Shown piece by piece: positions 11,274-15,839 of a DNA stretch of 42,664 nucleotides. The stretch lies in the NCBI GenBank assembly GCA_009692805.1, contig SHYM01000004.1, forward strand, positions 1-42,664, written 5' to 3'. Position 1 is the stretch's first letter. Every line of letters starts with the position of its first letter. The notes under the pieces were generated by a model. It did no database searches. It was given only the letters and a program-made list of their open reading frames with translations, and was not told the DNA's origin. A program made the position numbers and the translations under genes. This DNA is from Dehalococcoidia bacterium (lineage in GTDB: Bacteria > Chloroflexota > Dehalococcoidia > SHYM01).

Positions 11274-11525
11274 TTGCAACGCCACGCCCTAGTCCTGCTA
11301 GCGGTAGCGGCCAGCTTGCTCCTCGGCTGCGATGGCGGCGCGTTGTCCCAGGACGAGGATGCTCCACCCGCCACGGCGACCGCCCTCGTGGCCCCAGCGA
11401 CTGCGCCGCGCTCTTCTACGCCCACGCTGTTACCCCCAGCGGTGCCGGCGACCGCCACCGCCACGCCCACGGCAACCCCGGCGCTGGCACCGCCGCCGAC
11501 GCTCTCGCCGGCGACGGGCCAACCT
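11274..11525 (+). pseudogene. Lipoprotein N-terminus truncated at the island junction
   Basis: Signal peptide/lipobox VAASLLLGCDG followed by Pro/Thr/Ala linker; after about 11525 sequence becomes antisense to the DrmA-like frame. Confidence 0.55.
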
Positions 11526-12405
11526 GCCGCCGCACGGTTGGGGCTTCGGTACGGGGAATCTCGGCGCGGGGTACAACGACGGTCTTGATACGGTTGGCCC
11601 TGCCGGGTTGGGCCGGCGACGGGGTGGCTTCGACACTGACGCCGTGTCCGGTGGCGAACTCGATGGAATCCCGGTAGAGGAGTTCCAGGGTGCCCTCTTC
11701 CTCTTCCTTTGTGGTGCCGGCTCCGGGGAGGGCCTCCTTGCGGCCGATGAAAGGCGCCTGGCCGTCCACCCCATCGACTACCAGCTCAGCTTGGAAGAGC
11801 CATGCCGAGTCTCCATTGACTGATGGCTTCTCCTGCTCGTTGACGAGGAAGAGGCTGACGTAGCGGGCGTATTTGCGCTTGACGCAGACGCCGCGGACGA
11901 CGACGTCCGGGTAGTCGGTTGTGGGAACGAAGGGGCCGATGGGGCCCTCGGTCAGAGTAAGCAGGAAGCTGCCAGAGATGGGCTCCCTCTGCCACCAGCG
12001 GGAGGGTTTGCCGTCTTTGTCAAGCTTCTCCTCATCTTCGACCTTGGCGTAGCGACCCCAGGAAGCCGTGACGTGGACGTGTTCAGTGCCGGGGGCGGCG
12101 GCGAAAGAGAGGCCGGAGGCGGACGGGAGGAGCATCTTGGCCGCCGTGCGTTCTTCCGGTTCATCGTCGCCAGACTCTTCCTCACCACCTGTGCCCTCGG
12201 CGCTGTTGTCGCGCTCCGGGCCGGCGCCGACGGTGTCGCGCGAGGCAAGCATGCCGAGGGCATACCACTCGCTGATGCGCTCCTCGCCTGGGATTCGTTC
12301 CTCTTCGCCGTTGATGGGACCCAACAGGTCGCGGACAATGAGGTCTTCAAGCTCGGCGCGGAGGGTGGTTGGCGTGGGCTGTACCTGCAGGTTAGTCGTC
12401 GTCAT
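11525..12405 (-). pseudogene. drmA: N-terminal fragment of DISARM DrmA-like helicase
   Basis: TTLRAELEDLIVRDLLGPINGEEERIPGEERISEWYALGMLASRD, KMLLPSASGLSFAAAPGTEHVHVTASWGRY, ending ..VPRAEIPRTEAPTV; ATG at 12405; helicase motor domains absent. Confidence 0.62.
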
Positions 12406-14224
12406 CTTCAGCCTTGTCGTCAGTCGCCGTTGGAGGCGTTTCAGCGCTGGAAACGGCACTGGGCTTGCCCATAGCGGCTTCCACCTTCTGAAGTAACGCG
12501 CGCTCCCGAGCGGCCATGAACGCTCGGAAGTCATCGGAGCGAAGCAGCGCTGGCTCCACGAGATGGGTAGTGACGTTCTGATCGAGCGTCGTTGCGTCAA
12601 TGTCAGCGCCTTTGGCCACCCGCACTACGTAGTCACTAGGGGCACGGCCGCCAATGACGCGGTTCGTACGCGCGGACAGGGGAGTCTTGTTGATGACCGC
12701 ATCATATGCGTTTCGCGGGATCCCCTGACTCTCGCACCAGGCTTGAGGGAAAATGTGATGGATATCGATTGCATTGTCGAAGTACGCCTGAACGCTCGCC
12801 GGCTCTCCGGTCCGCCAGTCTGCCGCACCGGCCTTCAATAGCAAGGCGTATATCCCCTTGTAGGCAGCGCTACCTCGGGTGCGCAGTGTGGAGAGGCGTG
12901 ATGGCTGGAATAGGGCGTCGGCAATGGTCCGCGGTTCTCCGTCGGTGCCGCGCACCCAACCCACGACATCCGGCAGGTCGCGGCTGAACCGTGTCTCGGT
13001 GGTCCCGCCGTAGAGCTCACCGAGCACTCCACACCAGAACCACTTGGCGATCTTCTCTTGAGTGCCCTGGTTCTCGCCCAATGGCCCGAGGACTGTGAAA
13101 ATGGCGGACAAAGGCACGAGTTGGGTGCCATATGGGAGGAAGCGTGGGTCGTAAAAATGTTGGGTGTGCAAGAACTTGGCTGCGCTGCGCAGCCCCTTCA
13201 TGACCTGAGGAGCCCACCGGTCGTACTGTTCCAACTCCAAGTCGAGCATGTCTTCACGGCGGCAGCCGATACGCAGGGCGCGTTCCGTAGGAGCCGCTGC
13301 TTTGAGCGCCGCCTCGCGCTTCTCCTAGGTGGAGACGAGCGTAACTGTCTGGAGAAAGTCTGTGTTGGAGAAGTTGTTGACGATCTTGGTGTCCCACCGG
13401 CGTAACTCCGCCCGTCGGTCGTCCCAGTCCTTGCGCAGGTCGAATTCGTCCGCAGCAAAGGTCGCTGTAAGCAACTCGAACACGTTCAGCGTCACGCCGC
13501 CGGTGTTTACCTTCTCGAACACCTGGCAGACTGCCCGGCGCTCGGTGTCTTTGCCGAGCTCAATGACCGGAAGCTAGTATTTCTCGAAGCGGTCGAGAAC
13601 CTCCCGGTTGAAACGGTTCCAGAGCTGCATCTTGTCCTTGGCGTAGTCCCAGTGCTCCTGGAACCCCATGTACCAGTCGTCGTGATCGAACAGTTGGTTC
13701 AGTGGGAATAGGCGTGCGGCATACTCCCTGTCCCGATCGGAGTAGTCTTCGATAACTTCGCCCCGGAAGTTGCGGAGCTTGCGGTCCGGTGGGAGCCAGC
13801 GGATGGCTTCCTCGCGGTCGGTCTCCCCATCGAGGGCCATTTGCATGTCCATGTACAGCCACCCTTGGATAGGGTGGTTGCGAACGTCGCGCGCCTTCAC
13901 TGGGGTCTGCAGCATAAGCGCCTGGAACAACGATGTGAGGCGTTGCTGGCCGTCGAGAATCAGCCGTTCCGCCTTGGCGCCCGCCGGCGGCGTAGCACCC
14001 TCAATGGCCCGCTGCTTGAAGCGAACGCTATCGCCGCCGGTGCGCAGCATCATGATGGTGCCGACGGGGTAGGCAAGTGAGACGCTGGCCAACAGGCTGA
14101 TAATGTTGGCGTCAGGCCACCGCCAATCGCGCTGGAACTCCGGGAGTTGGGTTTTCCCAGCTTCCACCTCAGCTAGAATCGCCTGCATGAACTCCTTTTC
14201 GATCCCGAAGGCCTCGACTGCCAT
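12392..14224 (-). pseudogene. GmrSD-like DUF262 + DUF1524 (HNH) protein, one frame interrupted by two TAG codons
   Basis: LPEFQRDWRWPD, LILDGQQRLTSLFQAL (DUF262); VFEKVNTGGVTLNVFELLTA; IDIHHIFPQAW...INKTPLSARTNRVIGG (DUF1524-like). TAG at 13574-13576 and 13325-13327; the three ORFs share one frame; real stop TAA at 12392-12394. Confidence 0.8.
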
Positions 14225-14512
14225 TAGTCCTCCCTGTCGGTGAGTAGGTCGTGTTGTCCGGTGAGCGTGGTCTGTCGCTTGCCCCTGCTAGCTGACTTCT
14301 TCTTGTCATGGAGGCCAGCAGCGACCTCGTCGGCGTAGCGTCTGTGATTCAGTTCGAGCAGCCGATCGAGGATTTCGGGACGAGCATCTGGACTGATGGT
14401 GAACCTGAGACCTTGGGACGTTGGATGGAAGCCATGATCCAGCGGTAGATCGTTCCAACCGTAGGCGTCGCGGACCGCGTTGTCGAGCGTTGCGTGTAAG
14501 TCACGCAGCGAG
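14223..14512 (-). pseudogene. C-terminal fragment of an Eco57I/DrmMI-type DNA methyltransferase
   Basis: Translated minus strand: SLRDLHATLDNAVRDAYGWNDLPLDHGFHPTSQGLRFTISPDARPEILDRLLELNHRRYADEVAAGLHDKKKSASRGKRQTTLTGQHDLLTDRED*; TAATG overlap with the GmrSD start. Confidence 0.6.
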
Positions 14513-15703
14513 GGAATCCATCATCTTCCAGACCCTTTCGGCCGTCTCCACGCCTATACCCGGCGAGAGCTCGAATCCCTGCCGTGCCAGGGCCCGTTCC
14601 AGGGCCGAGAGCACCATGAGCGCGTTCTGCTTGCTAGAGGAGTACCCCATGAGCCCGATGCGCCAGATCTTGCCCCGCAGCTCGCCCAGGCCGCCGCCAA
14701 TCTCGATGCCTTCTTCATTGAGCAGGGCCTGTCGGACCCGCAGCTCATCGATGCCATCCGGCACCCGTACCGCCGTCAGGACGCTCAACCTGCGGCCCTC
14801 TTGCGCGAAGAGCTTCAGCCCCATCGCCTCCAAGCCGCCCTGGAGCGCCGCCCCATTGGTCAGGTGGCGTTTGAACTGCGCCGCCAGCCCCTCCGCCAGC
14901 ACCATACGCAGGGCTTCCCGCAGGGCGAGCACGAGAGGGCTGGAGGCGGTGTGGTGGTACGTCCGGGGCGATCCCATCCAGTAATCCCGCAGCAGGGAGA
15001 TATCCAAGTACCAGCTCTGGACCTTGGACTGCCGCTTGGCCAAAGCCTCCAGGGCCCTGTCGCCGAAGGTGATGGGGGCGAGGCCGGGCGGTGCGCCGAG
15101 GCATTTCTGGGTGCCGCTATAGCAGATATCTATGCCCCAGTCGTCGACGGCCACCGCGTGGCCGCCCAGAGAGGTTACCGCATCGACGATGAGGAGCGCC
15201 CCGTGCTCCTGGGCCAGCCGCCCGATGTCTTCCAGGGGCTGCAAGACACCGGTGGAGGTCTCCGCGTGGACCACGGCGATGGCCTTGACCCGGGCCTGGC
15301 GCCGCAGGGCTGACTCAATGGCCTCGGGGGCGATAACGCGCCCCCAATCCGCCTCCACCGGCACCGGCCGCGCGCCGCAGCGGGCCGCCATCTCCATCAT
15401 CCGGGTGCCGAAGTAGCCGTTCACCCCCACCACTATGGTGTCGCCGGGCTCCAGGGCGTTGCAAAGGGCCGCCTCCATCCCCGAGGAGCCGGTGCCAGAA
15501 AGGGGGAGGGTCAGTGCGTTGTGGGTCTGGAATACCTGGCGCAGGAGGGCCATGGTATCGTCCATAACCTTGATAAAGGCAGGGTCCATATGCCCCAGCA
15601 CCGGCGCCGCGAGGGCGGCTGTCACCTGGGGGTGGACGCTGCTGGGCCCCGGCCCCAACAGGACCCTCACGGGCGTCGCGGTCTCACCTGATGGTCCAGC
15701 CAT
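14501..15703 (-). CDS. Alanine/serine-glyoxylate aminotransferase family protein
   Basis: LLGPGPSSVHPQV, LSGTGSSGMEAAL, VDAVTSLGGHAVAVDDWGIDICYSGTQKCLGAPPG; ATG at 15703. Confidence 0.92.
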   Translation of the reverse strand: MAGPSGETATPVRVLLGPGPSSVHPQVTAALAAPVLGHMDPAFIKVMDDTMALLRQVFQTHNALTLPLSGTGSSGMEAALCNALEPGDTIVVGVNGYFGTRMMEMAARCGARPVPVEADWGRVIAPEAIESALRRQARVKAIAVVHAETSTGVLQPLEDIGRLAQEHGALLIVDAVTSLGGHAVAVDDWGIDICYSGTQKCLGAPPGLAPITFGDRALEALAKRQSKVQSWYLDISLLRDYWMGSPRTYHHTASSPLVLALREALRMVLAEGLAAQFKRHLTNGAALQGGLEAMGLKLFAQEGRRLSVLTAVRVPDGIDELRVRQALLNEEGIEIGGGLGELRGKIWRIGLMGYSSSKQNALMVLSALERALARQGFELSPGIGVETAERVWKMMDSLAA

Positions 15704-15839
15704 AGGCCTCCTTTCCTCAGCGCCGCCCATGGTAGCATGTCCGGCGGCTGGCGCACGCGGGGCCGCCTAACTCTTGGCAGGCCGCCGCCGCCTTGGTACA
15801 ATGAGGCGCCGTGATGAAATTCACCATGGGAGGTGGGAC

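Follow-up and report, generated by a model that had tools for sequence, protein, structure and literature searches.

A GmrSD/BrxU-like gene with two in-frame TAG codons, probably a decaying pseudogene, in a DISARM remnant of a Dehalococcoidia bacterium

The window considered here (the whole stretch of 42,664 nt that was analysed) belongs to a Dehalococcoidia bacterium known from a fragmented metagenome assembly (1.35 Mb in 86 contigs, 71 % complete). On its minus strand, a GmrSD-like gene lies within an island of ~3 kb, at both sides of which similarity to the DISARM defence system ends abruptly (Table 1). The 91 codons directly upstream of the GmrSD-like gene (14499–14227) show up to 69 % identity to the C-termini of DISARM-associated adenine methyltransferases, and directly downstream, from 12405 to about 11530, the codons align with the N-terminal ~290 residues of DrmA (PADLOC E=5.4e-40). 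The TAA stop of the methyltransferase gene drmMI, located at 14226–14224, overlaps the gmrSD start as TAATG, and the drmA start lies 14 bases inside the gmrSD end. Given these two overlaps, drmMI, gmrSD and drmA probably formed a single operon before truncation.

Table 1. Coordinates of the features in and around the island (positions in the window)
Feature	Position	Strand	Remarks
GmrSD/BrxU-like gene, probable pseudogene	12392..14224	-	610 codons + TAA, one frame, 2 internal TAG
Internal TAG #1, codon 217	13574..13576	-	Homologues: Gln commonest
Internal TAG #2, codon 300	13325..13327	-	Variable column, Gln rare
drmMI-type adenine methyltransferase, 3′ end	14224..14510	-	Last 91 codons and a few more; right edge about 14500–14515, approximate
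drmA, 5′ end	11520..12405	-	~290 codons; left edge about 11520–11535, approximate
Host class-V aminotransferase, apparently complete	14501..15730	-	Last codons and stop extend into the drmMI fragment
Lipoprotein-like host ORF	11274..11588	+	Extends into the left junction; probably truncated

At the right junction the drmMI fragment meets the 3′ end of the class-V aminotransferase gene, with which its edge overlaps; at the left junction the drmA fragment meets the lipoprotein-like ORF, which has a lipoprotein-like start (LLLGC) and a Pro/Thr/Ala-rich stretch. Junction repeats are limited to weak, chance-like ones, with no long repeats and no mobile-element ends at the junctions. No pre-insertion empty site was recovered from the aminotransferase orthologues of six genomes, which belong to other families and do not share a conserved flanking gene order. 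The GC content of the GmrSD-like gene is ~61 %, against 68 % in the window, and its GC3 is likewise below that of the host genes, a composition such as acquired DNA may have.

Translation of the minus strand across the GmrSD-like gene gives 611 codons including the terminal stop, in a single frame with no frameshifts. The frame starts at M1 and ends with a TAA at 12394–12392. An earlier note on this DNA had described three minus-strand ORFs that share one frame and are interrupted by two TAG codons alone, and translation bears this out with the same coordinates. The three listed ORFs are present (14224–13574, 13522–13325 and 13249–12392); as listed, the second and third begin at an internal GTG/ATG, and homology extends from stop to stop. 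Across the gene, the remaining two minus-strand frames contain 11 and 18 stops, which, together with the full-length homologue matches, discards a chance origin of the open frame.

The first piece alone matches GmrSD_N/DUF262 (PF03235) with E=1.8e-17. When TAG is read as Q the match covers residues 22–256 with E=2.1e-27 and 97 bits, so that the window protein passes the curated cut-off of 33.2, with its N-terminal half only. The DGQQR motif at residue 91, which together with a GmrSD_N (DUF262) domain served to judge membership of the GmrSD/BrxU family, is intact, as is HHIFPQAW at residue 489. The C-terminal half matched no Pfam family at 0.01, and no DUF1524 match was obtained. Within a 19-member family alignment the HNH-like HHIFP motif is invariant, and HNH_4 is weakly matched in 2 of the 19 members. 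A family profile searched against the PDB found 7p9k, the DUF262 protein BrxU (PMC8565348), as the best structure (E=3.5e-9), followed by SspE; the likeness to 7p9k is confined to the N-terminal ~90 residues. Judged by its predicted product, the gene is a single-chain GmrSD/BrxU-type restriction enzyme gene (DUF262 plus an HHIFP HNH-like motif). Further hallmarks of such enzymes are a C-terminal HNH nuclease domain of DUF1524 type (DHIYP-like) and an NTP-dependent activity that cuts DNA carrying modified cytosines.

A genome scan yielded 48 loci with GmrSD homologues, 45 of which gave alignments spanning the two stops. The top matches are mainly from Streptomyces and relatives, the best having 59.5 % identity over 588 residues. 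All 45 aligned homologues are continuous through codons 217 and 300; none splits at either point, and Gln is the commonest residue at codon 217 but not at codon 300. At codon 217 the aligned residues are Gln in 20/45, His in 9/45 and Lys in 7/45, while at codon 300 they are Ala (15), Arg (11), Leu (8), Tyr (4) and Gln (2). The earlier proposal that both TAGs derive from CAG is therefore supported at one site only: from the aligned residues, CAG ancestry is likely for codon 217 and unproven for codon 300. In this gene, 108 of the 186 single-base nonsense routes yield TAG, or 33 of 61 when transitions alone are counted (54–58 %), and the chance that two of two stops are TAG is ~0.3 from these counts. 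Thus, two TAGs are unremarkable and require no special cause.

Conservation was measured at 105 columns, defined as positions at least 95 % conserved, with 20 relatives used for comparison. The window protein departs at 5 of the 105, in each case conservatively, and the 20 relatives depart at 0–6. As the motifs are intact, the deviations few and conservative, and the gene without indels, its decay is judged to be recent. Premature stops relative to intact homologues and a lost functional context, which mark a pseudogene, are both present; relaxed selection (dN/dS near 1) or a lack of expression would be a further mark. Broken copies also occur among the homologues. A distant GmrSD-like homologue from an uncultured Erythrobacter MAG (locus L044, 5047–6813) contains an in-frame TGA and an in-frame TAA along with an internal deletion of ~50 residues; by its sequence it is an independent pseudogene that would have met the same fate without amber codons. 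A Hydrocoleum homologue (locus L043, 3461–5226) lies in two frames and is apparently a frameshifted copy.

Stop codon usage was taken from the 20 Pfam-supported genes of the window (1–42664), of which 14 terminate with TAG, 4 with TGA and 2 with TAA. An amber-recoded code would use TAG seldom or never as a true stop, and neither applies here; host amber recoding is excluded by these counts. TGA is expected as the dominant stop in a genome of 68 % GC, although TAG is the commonest in these genes. The natural stops within the island are TAA, as previously reported, though those of the surrounding host genes are mostly TAG. A search for an amber-suppressor tRNA, which the earlier note had proposed, found no CUA anticodon among the 35 tRNA matches in the 71 %-complete genome; every anticodon that ARAGORN read there belongs to a sense codon.

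Both neighbours of the GmrSD-like gene are incomplete. In contrast to class-1-type DISARM (drmD – drmMI – drmA – drmB – drmC), with which the order and strand of drmMI and drmA agree, only fragments remain here: drmB, drmC and drmD are absent from the island, and where a DISARM system would have a methyltransferase with complete DrmA, DrmB and DrmC, this locus keeps the 3′ end of drmMI and the 5′ end of drmA. No further DrmA was found in the genome, nor any DrmB by PF09369. The sole MZB/DUF1998-type protein encoded elsewhere in the genome was considered as a DrmB and rejected, being a HRQ1/MrfA-type helicase. The island is a DISARM remnant, not a system.

The GmrSD-like gene is most probably a pseudogene in decay, within what is left of a dead DISARM operon (probability roughly 0.87). 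A single-chain GmrSD/BrxU-type gene would formerly have stood in the middle of a DISARM operon of class-1 type (drmMI – gmrSD – drmA), of which a fragment of ~3 kb would have been left between host metabolic genes. With the methyltransferase reduced to its last ~91 residues and DrmA to its first ~290, the operon would be dead, the enzyme would no longer have been under selection, and the TAG stops would have arisen by a pair of ordinary point mutations. Since TAG is a true stop in the host, the product would comprise 216 residues and lack the last part of DUF262 and the entire nuclease domain. Truncation may have preceded or followed the stops, and expression was presumably lost. Of the options raised previously, nonsense mutation in a silenced nuclease is the one that gains support, from the truncation of both neighbours, the continuity of the homologues and the use of TAG as a real stop. 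Against a pseudogene stand the otherwise well-kept protein with intact catalytic motifs and the fragmented, 71 %-complete assembly, as the absent DISARM parts could be in unassembled DNA.

The same fragmentation of the MAG, together with the abrupt junctions, the genes truncated on both sides and the step in GC, is also what a chimeric metagenome join might leave, and the TAGs themselves could be consensus errors or a strain mixture. However, the contig carries on with host-like genes on both sides, the junctions lack long repeats that could mislead an assembler, and two independent stop-making base errors would be unlikely in an otherwise clean 3 kb coding stretch; an artefact of this kind appears improbable. 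Division of the enzyme into three separate functional proteins has a precedent of sorts, GmrS and GmrD being two distinct proteins in the original GmrSD system (PMC10952713). Yet the breaks miss the DUF262/HNH boundary, the first falling within GmrSD_N, and the third listed ORF would begin 25 codons past the second stop. With every aligned homologue continuous across both stops, independent subunits were rejected, and a split enzyme is the least credible of the explanations weighed.

Two other options from the earlier note would give the amber codons a meaning. If the TAGs were decoded, for example as Gln, a full enzyme would be made, which would suit the kept frame, the intact catalytic motifs and the frequent Gln at codon 217. 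This is very unlikely, as TAG is the host's main true stop, none of the 35 tRNAs offers a candidate, Gln is rare at codon 300 and the operon partners are truncated. Origin in an amber-recoded phage or plasmid, which would leave the gene untranslatable in its present host, would fit an island GC below that of the host, but its neighbours are bacterial DISARM genes without internal TAG. A scan of IMG/VR returned no relatives, and phage records gave three matches only, at 25–44 % identity; a viral origin was rejected on this basis, and recoded ancestry is as slight a prospect as readthrough.

With the gene read as a probable pseudogene, its place between drmMI and drmA is the feature left for comparison with known systems. 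In intact plasmid DISARM operons drmMI and drmA occur in the same order, sometimes with extra genes in between. The cargo of this slot varies, and includes a GIY-YIG nuclease, and an ATP-binding protein with an O-methyltransferase (L119, 7967–8251; L121, 5883–8297). Upstream of drmA in loci L142–L157, ends of UvrD-like helicases and an HNH-like ORF were seen by eye in the translations. In a small survey of 29 DrmA loci from a sample of the phylum, in which up to ~1.5 kb upstream was seen, the slot never held a GmrSD-like gene of this family; conversely, neither a drmA nor a drmMI match lies beside the 48 GmrSD homologue loci. None of the papers searched treats DISARM together with GmrSD and drmA. 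According to a review of domains that recur in different defence systems, DUF262 occurs in GmrSD, BrxU, SspE, Menshen, Dazbog and PD-T4-2; DISARM is absent from that list (PMC10952713).

The nearest parallel in arrangement is BrxU, a single-chain DUF262-DUF1524 type IV restriction enzyme within a BREX locus, the gene for which is positioned between brxC and pglX (PMC8565348). Shared with BrxU are a DUF262 domain with DGQQR, a C-terminal HNH-like motif and a single chain of ~600 residues, as well as placement inside another defence operon, adjoining an adenine methyltransferase gene. Unlike brxU, the gene here lies in a DISARM operon (drmMI – gmrSD – drmA), encodes HHIFP in place of DHIYP, and is interrupted by stops. 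An ancestral order drmMI-gmrSD-drmA with overlapping genes would be to DISARM what BrxU is to BREX. The odds seem evenly balanced that the island descends from a functional DISARM variant with a GmrSD/BrxU-type enzyme gene built in between drmMI and drmA and translationally overlapping both; one operon would then have acted against unmodified as well as modified phage DNA, as BREX does with BrxU.

The locus can thus be struck from the candidates for amber recoding or readthrough, the plain and most likely reason for its stops being a truncated operon. What it offers instead is a lead: the drmMI-drmA slot appears to accept variable cargo, here a GmrSD/BrxU-like enzyme, in a kind of partnership known from BREX.
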